The notes under the pieces were generated by a model. The model did no database searches and had not been told where the DNA came from. It saw only the letters and a program-made list of their open reading frames with translations. From an uncultured Bacteroidales bacterium (GTDB lineage Bacteria; Bacteroidota; Bacteroidia; Bacteroidales; F082), in the NCBI GenBank assembly GCA_946185535.1, contig CAMHJX010000013.1, positions 38,525-102,524 on the forward strand: 64,000 nucleotides of DNA, read 5' to 3'. The position numbers and the translations under genes are program-made. This document shows, in pieces, positions 54,110 through 63,903 of the stretch (position 1 is the stretch's first letter; each line of letters begins with the position of its first letter).

Positions 54110-54188
54110 GTACTCCCAGCAGGGGAATAAAAACAACGAAAGCCGCTGAAAATCAGCGGCTTTTCTGTACTCCCGCAGGGAGTATTTT
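54110..54188 (+). terminator. two terminators flanked by TGTACTCCC repeats
   Basis: AGCCGCTGA (54141-54149) and TCAGCGGCT (54153-54161) form a stem followed by TTTT. ACTCCC-GCA-GGGAGT (54169-54183) is a second hairpin followed by ATTTTT. A direct repeat TGTACTCCC(A)GCAGGG brackets the first hairpin (54110 and 54167). Between here and the integrase promoter the sequence is A/T-rich without genes. Confidence 0.75.
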
Positions 54189-54328: not shown

Positions 54329-54350
54329 CGTTGACACGGCGTTGACACGG
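54329..54350 (+). repeat. tandem 11-bp direct repeat upstream of the integrase
   Basis: CGTTGACACGG occurs twice back to back. The second copy supplies a TTGACA placed 22 bases before the -7 box. It could be an integrase arm site, an operator or simply a duplicated -33 element. Confidence 0.5.
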
Positions 54351-54453: not shown

Positions 54454-55947
54454 ATGGCAACAATTAAGTATTACCTTTCGAGGTACATCAAGAAGGATGA
54501 CGAAAGGGGTGAAATTCAACTTCGTTTTAGCGGGAATCGCAATTTTGTGAAAAGAGCGGCTACTGGAATCCGCATTACTGCGGGAAGTTGGGACGCTGAA
54601 AGAGGCACACCAAGGACGCGCAAAGTAAACAAATATGGCGACAACTGCGAGGAAATCCGGGATAGGCTCAGCCAACTTTCAGGCTATCTCCTGCGCTGCT
54701 GGGAACAGGCAGATGAAGGAACCGTGAAACCTGATGCACTCACAAGATGGATGGCAGACATTGAATGGAGAAGCTCACAAGAGAGCATCTTCATCAACGG
54801 ACAGGAAACCACAGTGACCAAATGGTATATCGAGAGCAAGACCCAGCAGCAAGAGAAGAAGGTGGAAGAGAAGAAAGAGAGGAAGAAGATTGAAAACAAG
54901 ACTTTCCTCGATGTCTATTCCTATTTCATCGAAGAGCAGTACAATAATGGCGTTATCGGCGACAGCAGACACAAGACCTACTACACTTGCCACAGCTTAT
55001 GGAATAGGATGGAAAGATACCAGCATAAGCAATACAGGGTCAAAGACATCACAACAGCCACGATATATGACTTCAGACATTTCGTGCTGAATGAATGTGA
55101 CCTTTGGGAGATGAGGCGAGTCAAAGACGATAAGACAGGGGAAATGGTTGACAAGCTTATGCCCAAGAAGCAATACGATTACATCTACCAAGGCTACGAA
55201 ATCATGAAGAGCCGAGGCGTAGAAAAGCGCAGCTTGAACTATGTAGTAATCCAAGTAAAGTATTTGAAAGCCTTTTGGCATTGGCTTATGAAGATCAAGA
55301 AAGTGGGTGTTGAAGACATTTTTTTGACCTACAACATGGACCAGGCTGTTTACGGCACACCTTACTATTTCACAAAGAAGGATAGGGAAATCCTTTACAA
55401 AGCAGATTTCAGCGATAGCCCTGAGCTGGCAATCCAAAGGGATATCTTCGTGTTTCAATCGCTCGTGGGGTGTCGCGTTGGAGACTTGAAACGCTTGAAG
55501 AAATCTAACATAATAGACGGAGAAGTCCTGCAGTACGTTGCCGGCAAGACCAAGAACAAAAGCGGAAAGATTGTGACGGTGCCGTTACACCCAATCGCAC
55601 AGGAAATCATCAAACGCTATAGTATCATCGAAGGCGACCAGCTCCTCCCCTTCATCGCAGACCAGAACTATAATGAAGCCATCAAAAAGATGTTCAAGAA
55701 GGTTGATAAGATTGACCACGTGGTGACGGTACTTGACCCAGTGACCAGGCTGGAGAAACAGGTGAAGCTGTCGGAGGTGGCCAGCAGTCACATGGGCAGG
55801 AGGAATTTCTGCGGCAACCTTTATGAAGCAGGATATAGGGATGCGGACATCGCATCGATGAGTGGACACGCGGAAGGTAGCAGGGCGATTGCCCGGTATC
55901 GAAAAGTGAGCGATGAAAGAAAAAAGAAGATGATTAAATCGCTATAA
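54454..55947 (+). CDS. tyrosine-type site-specific integrase
   Basis: 497 residues. The N-terminal half holds an Arm-like domain and a core-binding helical domain with a charged stretch of Lys/Glu (about 130-150). Catalytic residues are visible: Arg341 in GCRVGDLKRL, His446-x-x-Arg449 in HMGRRNF, His472 in MSGHAEGSR, and the nucleophile Tyr482 in ARYRKV. Such proteins integrate conjugative transposons, prophages and smaller elements in Bacteroidetes. It heads the accessory region and is followed by its own terminator. Its target site could not be identified; no tRNA gene is near. Confidence 0.92.
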   Translation: MATIKYYLSRYIKKDDERGEIQLRFSGNRNFVKRAATGIRITAGSWDAERGTPRTRKVNKYGDNCEEIRDRLSQLSGYLLRCWEQADEGTVKPDALTRWMADIEWRSSQESIFINGQETTVTKWYIESKTQQQEKKVEEKKERKKIENKTFLDVYSYFIEEQYNNGVIGDSRHKTYYTCHSLWNRMERYQHKQYRVKDITTATIYDFRHFVLNECDLWEMRRVKDDKTGEMVDKLMPKKQYDYIYQGYEIMKSRGVEKRSLNYVVIQVKYLKAFWHWLMKIKKVGVEDIFLTYNMDQAVYGTPYYFTKKDREILYKADFSDSPELAIQRDIFVFQSLVGCRVGDLKRLKKSNIIDGEVLQYVAGKTKNKSGKIVTVPLHPIAQEIIKRYSIIEGDQLLPFIADQNYNEAIKKMFKKVDKIDHVVTVLDPVTRLEKQVKLSEVASSHMGRRNFCGNLYEAGYRDADIASMSGHAEGSRAIARYRKVSDERKKKMIKSL

Positions 55948-55955
55948 GAAAGGGC

Positions 55956-55990
55956 GGGGCGGTTGCCGAGGCAATCGCCCCATTTTATTC
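55956..55990 (+). terminator. integrase terminator
   Basis: GGGGCGGTTGCC (55956-55967) and GGCAATCGCCCC (55970-55981) pair with one wobble and are followed by ATTTTATT. Confidence 0.85.
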
Positions 55991-55999
55991 AATAAAAAA

Positions 56000-56068
56000 G
56001 GGAAGCCGCGATATAGGGGTAACGGCTTCCCATTCAGTGATAACTACTGAACTCCATCTAATGGCAAC
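56000..56068 (+). promoter_or_regulatory. leader-like segment resembling the integrase leader
   Basis: A hairpin GGGAAGCCG/CGGCTTCCC (56000-56031) has AGGGGTAACG in its loop, followed by ATCTAATGGCAAC at 56056. The integrase leader has the same two blocks (54409 and 54449) at nearly the same spacing (40 versus 41 bases), the second containing its start codon. Here no open frame follows. Confidence 0.45.
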
Positions 56069-56218
56069 GGAGCGACTGCAAAGATAGATATTTTCAGAAT
56101 ATAAGAGGGCGAGAGCTGAGGTTTTTTCGCGCACTGTGTAGGCTGCCACACGGCCATTGCCGAACACTGCGCCGCAAGCCCTCCAAATGTGTACCCCGCT
56201 GGAGCCTGACTGGATGGC

Positions 56219-56272
56219 AAAGGCTGCGGCCAAAAAGCTACCCTAAAAGGGTGAAAGCTGACCCCGCAGCCT
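56219..56272. repeat. long hairpin unit 1
   Basis: AAAGGCTGCGG pairs with CCGCAGCCTTT across a roughly 32-base loop containing CCAAAAAGCTACCCTAAAAG. It is related to unit 2, with paired base changes. Confidence 0.65.
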
Positions 56273-56389
56273 TTGACAGCCAGGCAGCCCTCCGAATCGA
56301 TTAAATTGCTGGAGTGGATTTGCGGATGACCGACCGAGGATGAGAAACGAGAGCGGGAAAACGCAAACCCACTATTAGCCGAAGGCGGA

Positions 56390-56448
56390 CAAAGGTTGCG
56401 GCCAATAAGCTTCCTAAAAGATGCGCCACCTTCCTCCGCAACCTTTGG
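56390..56448. repeat. long hairpin unit 2
   Basis: CAAAGGTTGCGG pairs with CCGCAACCTTTG across a loop starting CCAATAAGCTTCCTAAAAG. Compared with unit 1, a C-to-T change in the left arm is matched by G-to-A in the right arm, keeping the stem. Confidence 0.65.
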
Positions 56449-56524
56449 CCGACTGAGGATTAATTAAAACCACCTACCAAGCCAGACGAAGTGACATAAA
56501 AAAGGAGAAGACTCCCCGATTCAT

Positions 56525-57004
56525 TCAGGAAGTCTTCACCATCTTGATCACAATTACTATAGCGGTAACGATGACGGCCAGCAACACTATCACCATACCG
56601 AGCAGAAACCACATGAAAGCGGGAGGCTTCTTCTTCGCTGGAGGCGATTCCTCGATGACGACTTGCGAATAGTGCAGCGTGTCGGAGAAGTGGACTGGCT
56701 CGGGTTCTGCCTCGTAGGTGACTGTGAGGCTGTCATCGGTGGCCGTCGCCGTGAAGGTGCCCTGCTCCGTCTGGATCTTGACGGCTTGGCCGTCAAGCAG
56801 CGGAGCGAGGGGCATCACGGCGGTATCGGCCAAGGGTGGCAATTCGATGAAGGTGTCGATGGGATGCGCCTGGACGCTCAGCAGCTCCGGGCATTGCTCC
56901 GTGATGCGACGGATGCGACGCTGAGCGCGGCGCTTCGCGTCGCAGGCGCATAGCGCCAACGACACCGACAACACTAGGAAGAGGATGAAAAGTCGCGTCT
57001 TCAT
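56525..57004 (-). CDS. lipoprotein with C-terminal membrane helix (spanin-like layout), 159 aa
   Basis: The N-terminus is a lipoprotein signal (FLVLSVSLALCAC, lipidated Cys at about 19 or 21). The middle is about 100 residues of acidic, extended sequence. The C-terminus is a strong transmembrane helix (about 129-155: FMWFLLGMVIVLLAVIVTAIVIVI) with a short basic end. A protein anchored by lipid in the outer membrane and by a helix in the inner membrane is the layout of unimolecular phage spanins. It is the last gene of the DUF6266/holin-like operon, three bases after its neighbour. Spanin function is inferred from layout and context only. Confidence 0.7.
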   Translation of the reverse strand: MKTRLFILFLVLSVSLALCACDAKRRAQRRIRRITEQCPELLSVQAHPIDTFIELPPLADTAVMPLAPLLDGQAVKIQTEQGTFTATATDDSLTVTYEAEPEPVHFSDTLHYSQVVIEESPPAKKKPPAFMWFLLGMVIVLLAVIVTAIVIVIKMVKTS

Positions 57005-57007
57005 GGC

Positions 57008-57268
57008 TTACAGGTTTTCGATCATCTGCTTCAGTTCGGCATTCTCCAGCGTGAGCTGTGCGACCTGAGCCGAGAGCCCGACGATTTCACGCCGGGCCTC
57101 GGTAAGCTCGGAATAGACGCGCTTGTTCTCCTCGACCAGGTTGAAGATGGTCTGCTGCATCTCGCGGATGGTGCGGTTTTGGCGCAGCCGCGTAGCGGCG
57201 AGCCAGGAGGCCACGCCCGTCAGAGGTGCAAGCAGCAGCGAAGTCCATTCAAAGATGCTCATGGCCAT
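57008..57268 (-). CDS. small membrane protein with coiled coil (holin-like), 86 aa
   Basis: One N-terminal transmembrane helix (about 6-25, IFEWTSLLLAPLTGVASWLA) is followed by basic residues (TRLRQNRTIRE) and a coiled coil (about 35-86) of Glu, Leu and Ala. Size, topology and position between the DUF6266 array and the spanin-like gene fit a holin or a phage accessory membrane protein, but no specific family was recognised. Spacing to both neighbours is under ten bases, so it is in the same operon. Confidence 0.7.
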   Translation of the reverse strand: MAMSIFEWTSLLLAPLTGVASWLAATRLRQNRTIREMQQTIFNLVEENKRVYSELTEARREIVGLSAQVAQLTLENAELKQMIENL

Positions 57269-57274
57269 AGGTTT

Positions 57275-57958
57275 TTACTTGCCGATTTTACGGCCAACCT
57301 TCTCGGCGCGGGTCTTGATGATGAAAGATCCGAAGCCTCTTAAATAGACGTTCTCACCCGAGACGGCATAGGTCAGGTAGAAGCGGACATTGTCGCCCTG
57401 CTCTGCCCAGTTGCCGACAGGCACGGACACGCCCATGGACGGGTCAGTGACATCGGTGTTGAAGATGCCAATCTTCTTTTGGGTGATGTTGTAGGCGACC
57501 GCGATGAAGTTGGCTTCGGCGGGCTTGCCGATGCTCTCAGCAGCGGCAGCTTCGGCGTAGATATCCAACACATCGTCGGTGACAGTGACCATGCTCTCGA
57601 GCATCGGCGAGTCGATGCGCTCGCCGTTGCCGATACCCTCCAGCGTGGAGAGGTCGACGGCCTTCACGTCGTCGGTGATGGCTGCGGCAGCGGCCAGCTG
57701 ACGGGTGAGCATGTTGCGGCGAGTCATGCCACGCATGACCGTCGGGAAGAGCGAGGTGAGCTGCTCATCACTGAGCTGCGAGACAAGCGACTGCAGGTCC
57801 TTGAAGAAGGCGCGCTGCTGCAGCTGCGCTGCCGTCTTCTGGTTCTTTACGGATTGGGCAAGCCCACGCATGTAGGCGATGCCGTTCCACGATGCACCTA
57901 TAACGGTGCCGACTTTACCTTTGAATCCGCCAAGGATTCCTTGCTTGATTTTTCCCAT
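57275..57958 (-). CDS. DUF6266 family protein, copy A
   Basis: 227 residues. The N-terminus MGKIKQGILGGFKGKVGTVI... to about residue 40 is nearly identical in all four tandem copies; the helical part (about 45-100, with MRGMTRRNMLTRQLAAA) and the beta-sandwich C-terminal half diverge. DUF6266 is a Bacteroidetes family without known function. This is the most divergent copy in its second half, lacking the LGNAPTA motif seen in the others (it has IGNGERI). It lies six bases before the holin-like gene and 34 after copy B. Confidence 0.85.
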   Translation of the reverse strand: MGKIKQGILGGFKGKVGTVIGASWNGIAYMRGLAQSVKNQKTAAQLQQRAFFKDLQSLVSQLSDEQLTSLFPTVMRGMTRRNMLTRQLAAAAAITDDVKAVDLSTLEGIGNGERIDSPMLESMVTVTDDVLDIYAEAAAAESIGKPAEANFIAVAYNITQKKIGIFNTDVTDPSMGVSVPVGNWAEQGDNVRFYLTYAVSGENVYLRGFGSFIIKTRAEKVGRKIGK

Positions 57959-57992
57959 TGCTTTACTTGTTTTTAGGGGTTAGACATTAGTT

Positions 57993-58676
57993 TTATTTGC
58001 CCGTGCGAGGGTTGCGACGCTGGCGGGCTGGACGAGTGACGACACCCAAGGTACCAAAGCCGACGAGGACGACCTTGGAGCCTGTGCTCAGCATGAAGCC
58101 GCTGTATTCGTCGGAGCCGATGCCGAAGGCGTCGTGATTGACGCTGAAGGACTGCGAGCCGGATGTGCCGACCGTCACTGTGGAATGCACGAGGAAGATC
58201 TTCTTCTGCGTGACGTTGAACACACAGATGGTCGGGTACTCGTCACCATGCTGGGCGCGCCAGTCGTTCTCGGCATCCCAAGTGATGGTGATGTTGGAAC
58301 GCGAGGCGGTGATGGCCACATCAGGAAGGTCAGCCGTTGGAGCGTTGCCCAGAGAAGTGATGTCGGCCAGGTCGGCATGTTTCACGCCCTCAGTGATGAG
58401 CGGGTCGGCGGTCAACTGCTTAACCAACAGATTACGGCGGGACATGCCCTTGGCCGAGTTGGGGAACAGGAAGAGCAGCTGTTCGTAGGACAGCTGGCCG
58501 ACGAGATCCTGGACTTCCCTGAAGAAGTCGCGCTGCGCCTGCTGCGCTGGGGTCTTCGGGTTCTTAATCGATTGCGGAAGGCCTCGCATGTAAGCGATGC
58601 CGTTCCAGCTGGCACCGATGACGGTGCCGACTTTGCCTTTGAATCCTCCGAGGATTCCTTGTTTAATTTTTCCCAT
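57993..58676 (-). CDS. DUF6266 family protein, copy B
   Basis: 227 residues with the shared N-terminus (GGFKGKVGTVIGASWNGIAYM), the conserved NPKTPAQQAQRDFFREVQDLVGQLS helix region, KGMSRRNLLVKQL, LGNAPTADLPDV and a C-terminal beta-rich half ending TRPARQRRNPRTGK. It is closest to copy D. No signal peptide is present, so the protein is cytoplasmic unless exported by an unknown route. The function is unknown. Confidence 0.85.
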   Translation of the reverse strand: MGKIKQGILGGFKGKVGTVIGASWNGIAYMRGLPQSIKNPKTPAQQAQRDFFREVQDLVGQLSYEQLLFLFPNSAKGMSRRNLLVKQLTADPLITEGVKHADLADITSLGNAPTADLPDVAITASRSNITITWDAENDWRAQHGDEYPTICVFNVTQKKIFLVHSTVTVGTSGSQSFSVNHDAFGIGSDEYSGFMLSTGSKVVLVGFGTLGVVTRPARQRRNPRTGK

Positions 58677-58706
58677 GATTTTTAGAGTTGTTGAATGGTT
58701 GTTGAT

Positions 58707-59462
58707 TTAGGTTTTAGCTTGCGGACTTGGTAGGGACTTGGTAGGGACTTGGTCAGGACCAGAATCGGGCTGTTTTTCATCCCCAGATCCTTTCGTTTTT
58801 TTGGGTGGCCATGGAGGCCGTTTTGAGACCGACAGAGTGCCAAATCCGACCTTTGAACCACGTTGGCCAGTGGCGAACATGAATCCTGAGAACTCGTCGC
58901 GCTCACGCCCGTAGGGCTTGAGGTCGATGTCGAAGGATTGTTTGCCAGACGGCTTCATCATCACTGGAGAGGCCACGAGGAACAGCTGCTGCTGTGTGAT
59001 GTTGGCCACAAGGATGACGGGATAGTCGTCGGGATGCTGGTCGCGGTAGTAGGTCACATCGTCCCACGAGATTTGCAGGACGGTGCGGTTGGCAGCGACC
59101 GAGACCGCCGGAAGGTCGGTCGTCGGTGCGTTGCCGAGAGTGGCCAGGCTGTCGAGGTCGACGGTCTTGGACTTGTCGACGACAGCCGCATAGGAAGCCA
59201 GCTGCTTGACGAGCAGGTTTCTGCGAGTCATGCCTTTGGGCTTCTTTGGATAGATGAACACCAGATCCTCGTTGGACAGCGACATGGCCAAGGTGATAAG
59301 CTCCTTAAAGTAGCTTTGCTGCCTCTTCTGCGAGCCTGACTTGCCTTTTCGATAGTTCTGCGGGAGGGCTTTCATGTAGAAGATGCCGTTCCAGTAGGAG
59401 CCGACGACGGTGCCAACCTTGCCCCTGAAGCCTCCGAGGATGCCCTGTTTGATTTTTCCCAT
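58707..59462 (-). CDS. DUF6266 family protein, copy C with extended repeat tail
   Basis: 251 residues. The shared N-terminus is more divergent here (GGFRGKVGTVVGSYWNGIFYM), and the middle keeps KGMTRRNLLVKQL and LGNAPTTDLPAV. After the common end (RPPWPPKK) it has about 25 extra residues, PDQVPTKSLPSPQAKT, encoded partly by 11-base repeats (GGGACTTGGTA type, about 58731-58757). The repeats may have arisen by slippage that moved the stop codon. Same operon as the other copies. Confidence 0.85.
   Translation of the reverse strand: MGKIKQGILGGFRGKVGTVVGSYWNGIFYMKALPQNYRKGKSGSQKRQQSYFKELITLAMSLSNEDLVFIYPKKPKGMTRRNLLVKQLASYAAVVDKSKTVDLDSLATLGNAPTTDLPAVSVAANRTVLQISWDDVTYYRDQHPDDYPVILVANITQQQLFLVASPVMMKPSGKQSFDIDLKPYGRERDEFSGFMFATGQRGSKVGFGTLSVSKRPPWPPKKTKGSGDEKQPDSGPDQVPTKSLPSPQAKT
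58728..58757. repeat. 11-base tandem repeat at the 3' end of DUF6266 copy C
   Basis: GACTTGGTAGG recurs about two and a half times in direct tandem and encodes the variable tail of copy C on the minus strand. It is a likely slippage site. Confidence 0.7.
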
Positions 59463-59540
59463 GGCGCTTGATTTTTAGTGTTTTCAAAAAAAGCCGCCCG
59501 ACTGGACGGCTTCGCGAAAGAATTATGAAAAGACAACAAA

Positions 59541-60212
59541 TCAATCGCGCTTCTTGGGTCTGGCGGGACGCTTGGTGACTGCCATCGTACCGAAGCCCAC
59601 GAGGACAATCTTGGAGCCGGTGAGCATCATGAAGCCGCTGAAGGTGTCGGTGGCTTCGCCGTAGGCGGCCAGGCCGACGTTGAAGGACACTTCACCGGAT
59701 TCGCCGAGGGCGGCGGTGGAGTTGACCAGGAACACCTTCTTCTTGGTGACGTTGGCCACAAAGACGGTCGGGTACTCATCCGCATTCTCAGCGCGTTCGG
59801 TGGTGGCACCATCCCAAGAGATGGTCAGGTTCTCGCCTGCGGCGGTGATGCTGACTTCAGGCAGCTCAGCCGTCGGGGCGTTGCCGAGGGAGTTGATGTT
59901 GCCCAGGTCGACGCTCTTGGTGTCGCCATCGACGGCGGCGACAGCGGTGAGCTGCTTGACAAGGGCGTTGTGGCGGGTCATGCCGCTGGGAGCCGTCGGG
60001 AACAGGAAGGCCAGCTGTTCTCTGGAGAGTTGGCCAACGATGTCGAGGACTTCCCTGAAGAAGCCGCGCTGCGTGGTTTGGCCAGCGGTCTTCGGGTTCT
60101 TTACGGATTGGGCGAGGCCACGCATGTAGGCGATGCCGTTCCACGAGGAACCAATGACGGTTCCGACTTTACCTTTGAATCCTCCGAGGATTCCTTGTTT
60201 GATTTTACCCAT
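59541..60212 (-). CDS. DUF6266 family protein, copy D (first of operon)
   Basis: 223 residues: the shared N-terminus (GGFKGKVGTVIGSSWNGIAYM), NPKTAGQTTQRGFFREVLDIVGQLS region, SGMTRHNALVKQL, LGNAPTAELPEV and a beta-rich C-terminal half with YPTVFVANVTKKKVFLVNST and GSKIVLVGFGTMAVTKRP. It begins the minus-strand operon of four DUF6266 genes, the holin-like gene and the spanin-like gene. A -7 box lies 132 bases upstream. The 78-base gap to copy C is the largest in the operon. Confidence 0.85.
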   Translation of the reverse strand: MGKIKQGILGGFKGKVGTVIGSSWNGIAYMRGLAQSVKNPKTAGQTTQRGFFREVLDIVGQLSREQLAFLFPTAPSGMTRHNALVKQLTAVAAVDGDTKSVDLGNINSLGNAPTAELPEVSITAAGENLTISWDGATTERAENADEYPTVFVANVTKKKVFLVNSTAALGESGEVSFNVGLAAYGEATDTFSGFMMLTGSKIVLVGFGTMAVTKRPARPKKRD

Positions 60213-60343
60213 GATTTGTAAGTTTTTAGGGGTTAGTGAATAAGTGAATTACTGGCAGTCGTCATCATGGGCAGCGCAGCAGATCATAATCTTTATATTG
60301 TTTTTGGTGCGGCGTTTCATGCCTTTTTTTGACGACAGCAGGG

Positions 60344-60351
60344 CAAAGATA
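60344..60351 (-). promoter_or_regulatory. -7 box of the DUF6266/lysis operon
   Basis: Minus-strand TATCTTTG, 131 bases before copy D. It diverges from the nuclease/peptidase promoter less than 100 bases away. Confidence 0.55.
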
Positions 60352-60438
60352 GTGGAAATGTGGTTTTTTACATGATAATTGGCTGATACTGACGCATTTT
60401 GACGCGATTTGACACTTTATTTGAGGGATTTTTTGTAA

Positions 60439-60446
60439 TATCTTTG
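60439..60446 (+). promoter_or_regulatory. -7 box of the thermonuclease/M15 operon
   Basis: Plus-strand TATCTTTG, 24 bases before the ATG at 60471. Two TTTGAC-like blocks lie upstream at 60400-60424. Confidence 0.65.
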
Positions 60447-60470
60447 CAGGGCACACAAAACAATAGGATT

Positions 60471-61067
60471 ATGAAGAAATTTTTGATTGTGGCCGCTGCG
60501 CTCCTTATGCTTTCCTGCAGCTGCCGGAATGAAATGACGGAAAGCAACCCGAGCCGCGCAGCGGCGAGTGTAACGAAATGCCTTTCCGGGCGTGACACCA
60601 TCGGTGTCGTTTTGAACGTGAGCCGCGTCATCGACGGCGATACGTTTGAGGGTCGGCTGGATAACGGCGGCAATCCTGGTGTCAATCCGTGGATGCTGCA
60701 GCTCACGAAGATTGTGGTCCGCATCAACGGCATCGACGCGCCTGAGCGCGGGCAGTTCTACGGGGATGTGGCCACACTGCATCTGCAGTGGCTCATCAGC
60801 GGGAAGGCCGTAGGCCTGAAGCTGAAGCAGCGTGACATGTACGGGCGATGGATAGCGACGGCCTATCACGACGGCGCTGACATCGGCGCGGAAATGCTGA
60901 AGGAGGGTTTAGCCTGGCATTATAAGGAGGTCGACGGCAATCCGCGCTACGCTCAGCTGGAAGCTGAGGCGAAACTGGCCGGATTGGGTTTGTGGTGCGA
61001 TGACAGAGCCGTTCCCCCTTGGGAATGGCGAAGGATGGATAAGTACGAGCGCGATGCGTACAGATAA
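60471..61067 (+). CDS. thermonuclease-family lipoprotein
   Basis: 198 residues from ATG 60471; the longer frame starts upstream of the -7 box. The signal LIVAAALLMLSCSC gives a lipidated Cys near residue 15. The SNase domain (about 45-180) has VSRVIDGDTFEGR, VRINGIDAPERGQFYGD and RDMYGRWIA, keeping the catalytic Asp, Glu and Arg. Staphylococcal-type nucleases cut DNA and RNA, here at the cell envelope. It is co-transcribed with the M15 peptidase gene 11 bases later and diverges from the DUF6266 operon. Confidence 0.88.
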   Translation: MKKFLIVAAALLMLSCSCRNEMTESNPSRAAASVTKCLSGRDTIGVVLNVSRVIDGDTFEGRLDNGGNPGVNPWMLQLTKIVVRINGIDAPERGQFYGDVATLHLQWLISGKAVGLKLKQRDMYGRWIATAYHDGADIGAEMLKEGLAWHYKEVDGNPRYAQLEAEAKLAGLGLWCDDRAVPPWEWRRMDKYERDAYR

Positions 61068-61074
61068 GGAGGTG
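61066..61074 (+). promoter_or_regulatory. strong Shine-Dalgarno of the M15 peptidase gene
   Basis: AAGGAGGTG overlaps the stop codon of the thermonuclease and precedes the ATG at 61079 by about six bases. Such sequences are rare in Bacteroidetes and not seen at other genes in this window, suggesting a phage-derived gene. Confidence 0.75.
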
Positions 61075-61078
61075 AGCG

Positions 61079-61444
61079 ATGGAACTGTCAAAGCTATCGA
61101 TGGAACGGCTGGAGGGCGTGGATGAGCGTCTGAAGGCCATCGTGATTGAGTGTGCTGCGCGTTGCCCTTATCCCTTCAACGTGTCGGAGGGACTGCGAAC
61201 GAAGGAGCAACAGCGCGAATATGTGAGGCAGGGGAAATCGAGGACGATGAACTCGAAGCACCTGACCGGGAAAGCCGTGGATCTATATCCGCTGACGATG
61301 AATCGGAAGCAGGTGGACTGGTCCAGGTTCGAGGAGTTGGCCGACCTGATGTTTCAGGTGGCCGGCGACCAGGGCACCGAAATCGTCTGGGGTGGCAACT
61401 GGAAGACGTTCGTCGACAAGTGCCACTTCGAGCTTAAGAATTGA
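61079..61444 (+). CDS. M15-family peptidase, endolysin-like
   Basis: 121 residues, essentially only the catalytic domain. The zinc site is read from SKHLTGKAVDLYP (His and Asp, about 61-73) and CHFEL near the end (His117), the M15 pattern of phage endolysins and D-Ala-D-Ala carboxypeptidases; the SEGLRTKEQQ segment is also typical. It cleaves peptidoglycan stem peptides. There is no signal peptide, so release would require a holin, and a holin-like gene lies in the divergent operon. A terminator follows. Confidence 0.88.
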   Translation: MELSKLSMERLEGVDERLKAIVIECAARCPYPFNVSEGLRTKEQQREYVRQGKSRTMNSKHLTGKAVDLYPLTMNRKQVDWSRFEELADLMFQVAGDQGTEIVWGGNWKTFVDKCHFELKN

Positions 61445-61709: not shown

Positions 61710-62549
61710 TTATAACGGAAGAGTCTGTATTCTTCTAACCACTCCTTGGTACTCTTCAGGAAGTAATTTCATTACATGTTCCTCAATGGATTGCGGGATA
61801 TTACCATAATAAGCCTCAGCAATACCACCGGTAATACAAGCCAAAGTGTCACTATCACCACCTAGAGAAACCGATAGACGCACAGCTGATTCAAAGTCAT
61901 TGCTGTCTATAAAAGCAACAATGGCTTGAGGAACAGTCTCCATGCAAGAAGATTCGTATCTGTAATATGGACGTATTTCGTCACATGTTCTATGAAGATC
62001 ATATCCAAATTGTCGTTCTATGAATCTGGAAATATCTTGCTTTGTGGCACCATGACGACCCATAAAGATTGAAGAAGCCACAGCTTGTGCGCCCTTTATT
62101 CCTTCAGGGTGATTATGTGTGATTTCGGCGCTTCGTTTACCCCAATACAGAGCATCTTCGATTGATTGGGCATACCAACCGCATGCAGATACTCTCATAG
62201 CTGCACCATTGCTAAATGAATTATATGGGTGACGCGTTCCTCCTCTGTAATCATGGAGATGTTGGGCATCCCTATATTCATACAGATATTCGGGATGAAA
62301 TAGCCATTTGTTAAAACCGCTACCATAACCGCCCATAGGATTTGGGTAACGGTTGGCAATATTCAAAATACACTGTTCTAATTCAGCGGATGAATGGTCG
62401 CTATCCAATAGCCACATTGCAACAGCAATGGACATCAGCGAATCGTCTGTAAACATGCTGTTCTCAGAAAACAGTGGAAATTTGGTTGTCTTGATGTTAT
62501 TGAACTCATAGACAGACCCCACAACGTCACCTATAATTGCACCTAACAT
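61710..62549 (-). CDS. ADP-ribosylglycohydrolase family protein
   Basis: 279 residues with the DraG-type metal-binding motifs: GAIIGDVVGSVYEF at the start, FTDDSLMSIAVA (about 33-44), SNGAAMRVSACGW, and GGDSDTLACITGGIAEAYYG (about 230-250). These enzymes remove ADP-ribose from proteins, nucleic acids or small molecules using two magnesium ions. It lies seven bases after a PD-(D/E)XK-like gene and forms one operon with it. No ADP-ribosyltransferase is encoded nearby, so the substrate is open. The A/T-rich codon use differs from the core genes. Confidence 0.9.
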   Translation of the reverse strand: MLGAIIGDVVGSVYEFNNIKTTKFPLFSENSMFTDDSLMSIAVAMWLLDSDHSSAELEQCILNIANRYPNPMGGYGSGFNKWLFHPEYLYEYRDAQHLHDYRGGTRHPYNSFSNGAAMRVSACGWYAQSIEDALYWGKRSAEITHNHPEGIKGAQAVASSIFMGRHGATKQDISRFIERQFGYDLHRTCDEIRPYYRYESSCMETVPQAIVAFIDSNDFESAVRLSVSLGGDSDTLACITGGIAEAYYGNIPQSIEEHVMKLLPEEYQGVVRRIQTLPL

Positions 62550-62556
62550 GATATTA

Positions 62557-63540
62557 TCAAGCTTTCTTTTTCAATGAGTAGATTGTATCAAGGACTTCGA
62601 TGAAATATGATTTTAATAATTCAATTTGAGCGTTAAGGTCTTTTAATTCGTTAAACTCTGCCGCTTTGTTGAACTCAAACCATACAGCTCCGTCTTCTTC
62701 CTCTTTAGGTTCGACGAAGTACTTGCCTGCTCCAATTTGACCAAGGTGGCTCATCAACAGATTATAAACAGGTTTCCCCCAATCTTCGCGAAAGTCGAAA
62801 CAAACACAAATCAATGGATGCTCACGTTCAAAAAAGACACCCATCCATCCCCACGTTTCTTTCATCCTTATGCCTTTGAATTTTACTTCAAAGTATTTTC
62901 CCATCACTCCCTCTCTGGGACCATATAACCTATAGCCACCGTTATTTGTGTCTTTAAGGCTGTTATATAAGTGCGAATTGTATTTTTCGTTGTCAACTGC
63001 AAATACCTCATCCAATGAATGATAAAAGGTATATAGCGAAAACATTCCTTCTAAGTTCATGTGCTTTTCAAATATATAAATGTTACAAACAGACTGCAAA
63101 TAACTCAAATAGCCATTCCATAGTTCTGATTCTTCAGATGGTATTTGTTTTTTGAGAAATAAATAAAGCTCAGTCCATGTGCGAACAACAAAACCCTTTT
63201 GTTGCATTGGATAGTTGGTAATATATCCCAATTGCTCTGGAGTGATTTTATAATGCTTAATGTATTGTTCAAAGTGGTGATTAGGATCCCAGATTTTGCA
63301 TTCAATAAGATATGTTTTTCCTTCATATTCAAATTTAAAGTCAGGTCGGCAATCACCATCAGCAGCTTCTCTTTCGAGATAAATCTCATCAAATGGAACA
63401 TTCGGGAAAAAGAAATCCAGAAAAGCTGTCAGGAACATGTTAGATGTTTGACACATTGCCCAGGTTATGTCTGACAAATCGTTTTCGTGATAAAATCGTT
63501 CAGACAAAATCGACAAGAAATCCTCTATCATACTATTCAT
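62557..63540 (-). CDS. PD-(D/E)XK nuclease-like protein, 327 aa
   Basis: A nuclease-type core appears at about residues 60-85: DGDCRPDFKFEYEGKTYLIECKI, that is an Asp, about ten residues and then Glu-Cys-Lys, the PD-(D/E)XK pattern. The rest is helical and unfamiliar. It precedes the ADP-ribosylglycohydrolase gene by seven bases. A TACTTTTG -7 box (63546-63553) ends only five bases before the first ATG, so ATG 63531 (Met4) may be the real start. The A/T-rich composition suggests transfer. A role in defence is inferred from fold and setting, not shown. Confidence 0.7.
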   Translation of the reverse strand: MNSMIEDFLSILSERFYHENDLSDITWAMCQTSNMFLTAFLDFFFPNVPFDEIYLEREAADGDCRPDFKFEYEGKTYLIECKIWDPNHHFEQYIKHYKITPEQLGYITNYPMQQKGFVVRTWTELYLFLKKQIPSEESELWNGYLSYLQSVCNIYIFEKHMNLEGMFSLYTFYHSLDEVFAVDNEKYNSHLYNSLKDTNNGGYRLYGPREGVMGKYFEVKFKGIRMKETWGWMGVFFEREHPLICVCFDFREDWGKPVYNLLMSHLGQIGAGKYFVEPKEEEDGAVWFEFNKAAEFNELKDLNAQIELLKSYFIEVLDTIYSLKKKA

Positions 63541-63610: not shown

Positions 63611-63903
63611 AGGGTGGCGGTGGGGACGATGGTGGTACGGAGCGAAGCGATAGCGGAGCGACACCTTTCCGAACTCTCGACTTAGGGTGGCGGTTGGGGA
63701 CGATGGTGGTACGGAGCGAAGCGGTAGCGGAGCGACACCTTTCCGAACTCTCGACTTAGGGTGGCGGTTGGGGACGATGGTGGTACCAGAGCGAAGCGGT
63801 AGCGGAGCGACACCTTCCGAATACTCGACATAGGGTGGTTGGTGGGGTAAGTGGTGGTTGCCCAAAGCGAAGCGTTAGCGGAGCGACCTGACCTGAACTT
63901 CGG
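63611..63903. repeat. 74-bp GC-rich tandem repeat, four copies
   Basis: Units start with AGGGTGGCGG at 63611, 63684 and 63758, and a more divergent unit starts at 63832; spacing is 73-74 bases. Each contains GCGAAGCGGTAGCGGAGCGA. A decayed fifth unit may begin at 63903. No spacers and no gene content, so it is not a CRISPR array. The last about 100 bases of the window hold no recognisable gene. Confidence 0.85.

Follow-up and report, generated by a model that had tools for sequence, protein, structure and literature searches.

DUF6266 gene arrays and candidate lysis genes in a mobile, tRNA-integrated island family of Bacteroidales

The window analysed here, a 64,000-nucleotide stretch of contig CAMHJX010000013.1 (GenBank assembly GCA_946185535.1), comes from an uncultured Bacteroidales bacterium that is a relative of gut and rumen species, and it holds the left 9.8 kb of an island integrated at a tRNA-Lys gene and built around an array of DUF6266 genes. 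An initial annotation, made from the sequence alone, had proposed an integrated element at 54454..61444 with an integrase, four tandem DUF6266 genes, a holin-like membrane protein, a lipoprotein and a divergent pair formed by a staphylococcal-nuclease-type nuclease (SNase) and an M15 peptidase. Profile matches and hydropathy bear out this gene set, except that the membrane protein, present as described, is weak as a holin by sequence and is a candidate by position. The extent has been revised, with the element starting at 54167, where its left attachment site (attL) was found by genome comparison, and running beyond 64000, where the contig stops and past which its right flank lies.

From the left, the element opens with the attL core GTACTCCCGCAGGG (54167..54180, forward strand), the 3' end of tRNA-Lys(CTT), followed by twin TTGACAC repeats 11 bp apart (54331..54348, forward) upstream of a tyrosine integrase of 497 amino acids (aa) (intA; 54454..55947, forward; PF00589, E 2.8e-11; phrog_1, 5.7e-21), behind which lies a terminator-like hairpin (55956..55981, forward). 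The reverse strand carries an operon transcribed in the order D1, D2, D3, D4, an 86-aa protein and the lipoprotein. The first four are DUF6266 paralogues, all passing the PF19781 cut-off: D1 (59541..60212; 4.2e-20), D2 (58707..59462; 8.8e-9), D3 (57993..58676; 9.3e-15) and D4 (57275..57958; 5e-12). The 86-aa protein (57008..57268) is the holin candidate, and the 159-aa lipoprotein (56525..57004) is of the u-spanin type by hydropathy, with a lipobox-like N-terminus and a C-terminal membrane helix. A terminator-like hairpin (56507..56537, reverse) closes the operon ahead of a double-hairpin DNA module (56206..56463, reverse), which was recognised by alignment and folding and lies 3' of most related cassettes. 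Divergently, on the forward strand, are the SNase (60471..61067; PF00565, 8.2e-17), which has a lipoprotein-like start by eye and is probably exported, and a 121-aa M15 endolysin (61079..61444; PF13539, 3e-11; phrog_465 endolysin, 4.6e-43) without a visible hydrophobic signal. Between the two transcription units lie a control region (60344..60446) and a short leader reading frame of 12 codons by eye (60249..60287, reverse) behind a conserved 20-nt block. The same genome holds a second cassette, at about 713-7082 of contig C1, composed of M15, SNase, three DUF6266 genes, a relative of the 86-aa protein, the lipoprotein and an integrase that is split into two frames.

The integration site was resolved by comparison with related genomes (denoted G). 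The gene left of the window integrase is apbE, and in G021 an empty site was found in which apbE (97% identical) is followed directly by the tRNA-Lys sequence and a response regulator gene (by eye). The window diverges from this empty site inside GTACTCCCGCAGGG, at the tRNA 3' end, which supports the proposal of an integrated element. The same tRNA sequence is annotated as tRNA-Lys(CTT) at three related loci (denoted L; L063, L066 and L067), where GTACTCCCGCAGGG ends an intact tRNA at the right end of the element. The 14-nt core also occurs near apbE in G002, G003, G024, G019 and G033, with an integrase after each (two by eye). Both ends are spanned by contig C10 of G019, where they lie about 22.6 kb apart and enclose three DUF6266 genes as well as genes identified by eye as integrase, primase-like and Dnd-like. 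In G024, a left end with integrase and module is cut by a contig end, and another contig carries a D2-D4 array, the module and tRNA-Lys; likewise, a second array may lie in the part of the window element that continues past the contig end. Within single loci, no attachment-site repeat exceeded 11 bases, and none exceeded 10 exactly at the 3' end of the tRNA; general repeat searches gave no clear pair, and the ends were recognised only via genome comparison.

Integration beside tRNA genes extends well beyond this site. Among 80 loci with DUF6266 in the reduced gene set (L073, L114, L115 and L120, which have no such gene in it, were excluded, L073 being among the 30 closest loci tallied below), a tRNA within 1.5 kb with its 3' end facing the array was present at 23 of the 62 loci with enough downstream sequence, whereas none of the 62 had a tRNA on that side in the same-strand orientation only, and any tRNA within 1.5 kb upstream occurred at just 1 of 64. 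A facing tRNA accompanied 21 of 39 arrays of two or more genes and 2 of 23 single genes. Eleven kinds of tRNA are involved, counting the nearest, and the loci are not independent because several share one site in related species. Further, the twin TTGACAC motif at 11-bp spacing was found in all ten integrase upstream regions recovered (the window and nine others; L062 and L075 yielded none).

The cassette genes are under purifying selection. Median ratios of nonsynonymous to synonymous change (dN/dS) were 0.227, 0.184, 0.140 and 0.160 for D1 to D4; the other cassette genes gave 0.089 (holin candidate), 0.187 (spanin), 0.195 (SNase) and 0.077 (M15), and the integrase gave 0.108 (five pairs only). 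In synonymous differences per site, cassettes are closer between species than most of the host genes tested. Against G034, the values are 0.16 for D1, 0.27 for SNase, 0.37 for the spanin, 0.39 for D4, 0.42 for both D2 and the holin candidate, 0.45 for M15 and 0.49 for D3, compared with 0.76 for apbE, 0.86 for an 821-aa host gene and 0.80 for the integrase. Against G003, the cassette differs by 0.33-0.53, apbE, the 821-aa gene and ftsB by 0.66-0.70 and the integrase by 0.73; against G002, the cassette differs by 0.20-0.50, apbE by 0.58, the 821-aa gene by 0.76-0.91 and the integrase by 0.73-0.74 (the 821-aa gene is partly covered in G002 and G034). Because it is closer at synonymous sites than most tested host genes and the integrase, the cassette seems to move by itself, independently of the adjacent integrase and at a later date than the host genes. 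The G+C content is 56% in the cassette, 50% in the host part, 46% in the integrase and 39% in the cargo described below.

DUF6266 was detected in 41 of 100 genomes (this one, 59 others of the genus and 40 of the order), in 43 of 295 genomes of the order and in 19 of 395 of the class, with this genome counted in all three and up to 17 matches per genome. Both the genome scan and its filter required a GKVG motif, and the regions fetched represent part of the places found: 18 in addition to the window from the first 100 genomes, 20 from the class and 20 from the order. A literature search found no publication naming the family and none on this protein or locus. The window proteins are basic, with isoelectric points of 9.2-9.8 (a value given with no host-protein control), and the C-terminal 32 residues of D3 (196-227) resemble part of HU (PF00216, E 2.4e-6), so that this tail may be a captured fragment or an arm that binds DNA. 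A family that starts with 'GxxG...FYK' and neighbours DUF6266 in three loci looked related to it by eye and was dropped when profile comparison gave a probability of 0.2%. The HU-HIG proteins (PF18291) of Bacteroidetes are likewise multi-copy and patchy in the same order, but most copies stand alone; their loci were dropped as a parallel system, with an amidase-like neighbour (by eye) in only 1 of 20 places (L313).

Several other settings of DUF6266 were encountered. At L254-L260 (G538, G071 and G086), there is a different cassette with a DnaJ-like protein, DUF6266, small proteins and a 490-579-aa protein that joins a DUF6266 N-terminus to InlB-type repeats; three of these loci have a small two-helix membrane protein, and six of the seven have a tRNA nearby. 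DUF6266 stands beside CRISPR-Cas-like genes (by eye) at L094, L137 and L268, with cas1/cas2-like genes and, at L094, a 1457-aa Cas9-like protein. DUF6943 (PF22105) adjoins DUF6266 at L049 (8465-8914) and L264 (9003-9407), and similar proteins were seen by eye near it at several loci outside the window genus.

The lysis genes would make up a phage-type lysis cassette for Gram-negative hosts, with the endolysin identified by family, the spanin by architecture and the holin proposed by position only. The lipoprotein has hydropathy peaks at residue 5 (2.45) and residue 135 (3.34) of 159, with Cys19 and Cys21 after the first peak, and fits the u-spanin architecture of an outer-membrane lipoprotein signal and a C-terminal transmembrane domain, as defined in PMC6139136; the fit to the lipobox consensus before the cysteine is partial. 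Like the u-spanin gp11 of phage T1, as described there, it has a lipoprotein signal and a C-terminal membrane helix, and it ends the operon that holds the holin candidate, but it has a Cys38 beyond the lipobox, and profile searches matched it to no known family. A periplasmic cysteine occurred in 0 of 58 u-spanins in the survey reported there (PMC6139136), a trait of those surveyed and not a definition. The 86-aa protein has one N-terminal hydrophobic stretch (mean 1.30; usual threshold 1.6) followed by a coiled coil, and the only holin-named families to match it were two PHROG entries labelled 'hol-like chemotaxis', both weakly (E 0.011 and 0.022). Its best support as a holin is that a 97-aa protein with a stronger N-terminal hydrophobic stretch (1.72) occupies the same position at L135.

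The co-occurrence of lysis genes with DUF6266 elsewhere, on which the initial reading of the locus depended, was recovered. Among the 30 closest loci (L039, L040 and L058-L085), at least one of the holin candidate, spanin and M15 genes is present in 22 and all three in 15; of the seven with a partial set, six end within 570 bp after the array, and L065 has the spanin only. Unrelated lysis genes also accompany DUF6266: a phrog_873-type endolysin in eight loci (representative L136, 8.8e-38), a second spanin-type lipoprotein in seven, a different holin-type protein in six (representative at L049, Phage_holin_4_1, PF05105, at 2.1e-5) and a phage lysozyme on one contig (L048/L106). A CHAP match at L270 is below the cut-off, and endolysin-like genes lie beside DUF6266 in 2 of 20 further places of the order, one being the L135 locus again. 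In G020, a divergent cassette (L422, 4394-6093) encodes on a single strand an SNase (54%), another kind of M15-like protein (by eye) and a lipoprotein of the spanin type; close by are the hairpin module and a related integrase.

The control region between D1 and SNase contains two boxes of the form TAnnTTTG, which we take to be the Bacteroides -7 type of promoter box, 87 bp apart and pointing away from each other. This arrangement is conserved, with a spacing of 86-88 bp in 15 of the 17 measurable loci (18 aligned) and of 97 in L078 and 74 in L080. Between the boxes lie direct repeats with a 10-bp period (at ~60380-60415 in the window), and this period is the best lag in 14 of 17 loci (p 0.000-0.010, 500 shuffles each), weaker in L061 (p 0.024) and absent in L058 and L080. 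The repeat unit varies between elements, which is what one would expect if an operator co-varies with its regulator; a gene for such a regulator was not recognised. The 20-nt block and short reading frame 5' of D1 are present in most lysis-bearing loci (L080 and L081 lack the block even when three mismatches are allowed), and in other arrays a copy of this block stands ahead of DUF6266 start codons. The leader region was also considered as an RNA structure and proved unremarkable (z -1.4).

The 258-bp double-hairpin module gave matches at 69-91% identity in 21 of 81 loci searched and, counting the window, is present in 13 of the 15 loci with the whole lysis set and in all 8 of the closest loci without lysis genes; of the two whole-set loci without it, L068 is cut by a contig end. 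Where its position was checked, the module lies downstream of the cassette and ahead of the integrase or tRNA. Folded as single-stranded DNA, it reaches -52.5 kcal/mol (z -5.5), an energy lower than that of any of 200 shuffles. Its pairing is conserved across an alignment of 21 rows (the partial match at L081 was excluded), with 98.4% of 754 cells paired and 6 of 36 pairs changing on both sides, values that 0 of 500 shuffles reach, though related rows inflate the covariation counts; sliding the partners lowers pairing to 19-46%. Terminator-like hairpins are enriched around it (5 sites in 801 bp vs 1.4 expected), flanking the module on both sides with one weaker site inside. Because of this flanking and because the operon seems to end before it, a role as DNA is preferred, and the module probably lies outside the main transcripts. 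As an RNA, it was rejected with no Rfam family over threshold (two weak matches elsewhere). The module was found in 12 of 60 genomes searched, this one included, all of the genus, and gave no match in phage records. Of 12 module places fetched, ten have a contig start or end no more than about 1.4 kb away, and five of these ten have remnants of the holin candidate or spanin; modules apparently without a DUF6266 neighbour lie near contig ends that cut the cassette.

Taken together, the reading we favour, at a probability of a little under one half (about 0.45), is that this is a mobile tRNA-Lys(CTT) island whose self-lysis of the host releases DUF6266 nucleoprotein or particles, satellite-like or virus-like in kind and not a bacteriocin. 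The comparisons establish the integration site, the exchange of the cassette, its co-conservation, purifying selection on its genes, the pairing in the module and the conserved divergent promoter boxes. As to induction, the order of events, what DUF6266 binds, release and transfer, we infer the following course. The core is the horizontally exchanged cassette (about 56206-61444), whose divergent control region would switch both operons on together, so that the four basic DUF6266 proteins are made, followed by lysis. The DUF6266 proteins would bind, or enclose, the DNA of the element. The M15 enzyme, because it has no hydrophobic signal, would need the holin candidate to reach the wall, and the u-spanin-type lipoprotein would then join the membranes, upon which the cell would burst and the nucleoprotein or particle leave. 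The probably exported SNase may clear host DNA, and the double-hairpin module may be a DNA site for replication, recombination or packaging.

Several observations weigh against this reading. The part of the element inside the window shows no gene for replication or packaging, and the assignment of the 86-aa protein as the holin, by position, is weak. DUF6266 often occurs without lysis genes: these are missing from 8 of the 30 closest loci (including L079, which is cut 650 bp beyond its array), and no endolysin, holin or spanin was recognised by eye beside DUF6266 at the 20 loci from the wider class. At the synonymous sites, the host gene ridA is as close between species as the cassette (0.37 in G003), and because it too is low, codon constraint may add to the contrast between cassette and host. 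The GKVG requirement accounts in part for how little the DUF6266 N-terminus varies. For the module, L080 has the whole lysis set with no match at E 1e-6, further pair types number 8 vs 7.6 in shuffles (268 of 500 as high), and covariation contributes little to the consensus fold (energy term -0.58). Links to viruses are few: DUF6266 homologues were found in one phage record only, which is complete by label only, and a pattern-based scan of 2.9 million IMG/VR viral contigs gave two DUF6266 matches, apparently on bacterial chromosome or integrated element, one adjoining an integrase and the other cas1/cas2-like genes (by eye).

Of the alternatives, the one that survives best, doubtful as we hold it to be, is a helper-dependent phage satellite in which helper capsids package the island, DUF6266 binds its DNA or steers the helper, and the lysis set completes lysis or controls its timing. 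At L054, an integrase-like gene (PF13102, at the cut-off) lies near DUF6266 together with a DUF3987 primase (PF13148) and a protein of the HTH_17 family (PF12728). An integrase and DUF3987 also occur at L048, and clustering places relatives of HTH_17 and DUF3987 at L108 and L135, where no integrase was seen. According to PMC10803314, the PICMI model, described from Vibrionaceae, requires an integrase, AlpA (PF05930/PF12728), a DUF3987 primase (PF13148) and Fis, so that integrase, HTH_17 and DUF3987 are three of its four mandatory genes. The likeness extends to small integrative islands with variable cargo and no capsid genes seen, to an integrase, which the window has (PF00589), and to the AlpA/HTH_17-type gene and DUF3987 primase near DUF6266 in relatives, whereas the present islands differ in carrying DUF6266 arrays and a lysis set, and the window's 9.8 kb shows no primase or AlpA. 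The complete 22.6-kb relative carries Dnd-like cargo (by eye), and satellites carry defence genes (PMC9122126). The island is satellite-like in layout, but it is not classed as a satellite here. A whole lysis set is unusual for a satellite, and the 9.8 kb that can be read yielded no recognisable primase or AlpA-like gene. The known satellites, to our knowledge, take lysis from the helper phage. Further, Terminase_6N, the sole terminase family searched for in this genome, is absent from it, though a helper need not be resident.

A bolder form of the preferred reading, which we consider unlikely, takes the DUF6266 proteins to coat or package the genome of a new kind of virus or transfer particle in Bacteroidota, one that is temperate, very small and integrates at tRNA genes, with its own lysis set, no terminase and the module as origin or packaging site. 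D1 and the spanin had no match in phage records. With a second DUF6266 query, one record was found, OP209177.1 (Bacteriophage N55_L8635_C17.5; 8038 bp, labelled complete genome, host 'bacterium', Ireland), in which a DUF6266 profile detects three DUF6266-like proteins (77, 32 and 24 bits). Profile-profile alignment (hhalign) supports the homology (probability 97.9%, E 3e-13), and the best of the three scores 23.1 bits on the Pfam model against a cut-off of 23.4. This small genome, which counts as a viral link for the preferred reading too, resembles the island in having three DUF6266-like proteins and a lysin gene; it differs in encoding a REP_ORF2-G2P-type Rep, a CHAP lysin and a PAPS reductase, with no integrase recognised and no capsid family in the seven proteins scanned. 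Its Rep matched 0 of 295 genomes of the order (in a search with no positive control), relatives of its proteins were neither confirmed in viral contigs nor found by tblastn in other phage records, and a literature search found no publication on it. A divergent DUF6266 query gave no phage record, and plasmid records gave no match. The M15 gene has 64 relatives in viral contigs, at most 49% over its length, and the 86-aa protein has none there.

A domesticated lysis or release island, in which altruistic lysis in the manner of colicin release frees DUF6266 or cell contents that act on competitors or kin, would account for a lysis set without recognised virion genes and for several diverged paralogues. 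We regard it as improbable given that no immunity gene was recognised, that the paralogues are under purifying selection (median dN/dS 0.14-0.23) and that homologues occur in a phage record with a Rep. Slightly less probable again is abortive infection, with DUF6266 sensing phage and the lysis genes killing the cell: the neighbours of the cassettes include defence-like genes (by eye), and three DUF6266 loci are beside cas-like genes (by eye), but PADLOC gave weak matches only (SNase, 5.7e-4; the 86-aa coiled-coil protein, 0.0089), and DUF6266 also occurs alone without a recognised effector. That the island is the decayed remnant of an ordinary tailed prophage, as the split integrase of the second cassette could suggest, is largely refuted by the same compact gene set at many sites in many species, by purifying selection, by the conserved control region and module and by the flanks of eight related loci (85 proteins of 100 aa or more), where, among the 25 PHROG families shown of the 83 matching, there was no capsid, portal or terminase and the sole structural family was a tape-measure family matched by a single protein. 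The absence of capsid and portal genes noted at the outset is repeated, within those families, in these flanks. Neither finding that would have overturned the initial reading was obtained: DUF6266 and lysis genes do occur together in other genomes, and among the families shown the related flanks hold no tailed-phage structural set, although the window's own right flank lies past the contig end.

Beyond the M15 gene, the window element carries probable cargo (61710-63540), comprising an ADP-ribosylglycohydrolase (61710..62549, reverse; PF03747, 8.7e-33) and a 327-aa protein that is nuclease-like by eye (62557..63540, reverse; no Pfam match at E 0.1). The equivalent region in relatives holds kinase, HEPN-like or Dnd-like genes, mostly by eye. 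Tandem repeats of ~74 bp lie at 63611-63900, near the contig end, and similar sequence is found by the ends of cassette-bearing contigs (L040, L054 and L055).

This is a real, recurrent and mobile family of lysis-bearing islands around an unstudied protein, which a cautious filing would place as a new variant of integrative satellite-like elements and a bold one as a new type of small virus. Through its tRNA ends, control region and hairpin module, the family lends itself to direct tests of excision, induction and packaging. Should such islands spread by lysing their host, they would add a route of lysis and gene transfer that is barely represented in virus collections, as the two contigs from the IMG/VR scan indicate.

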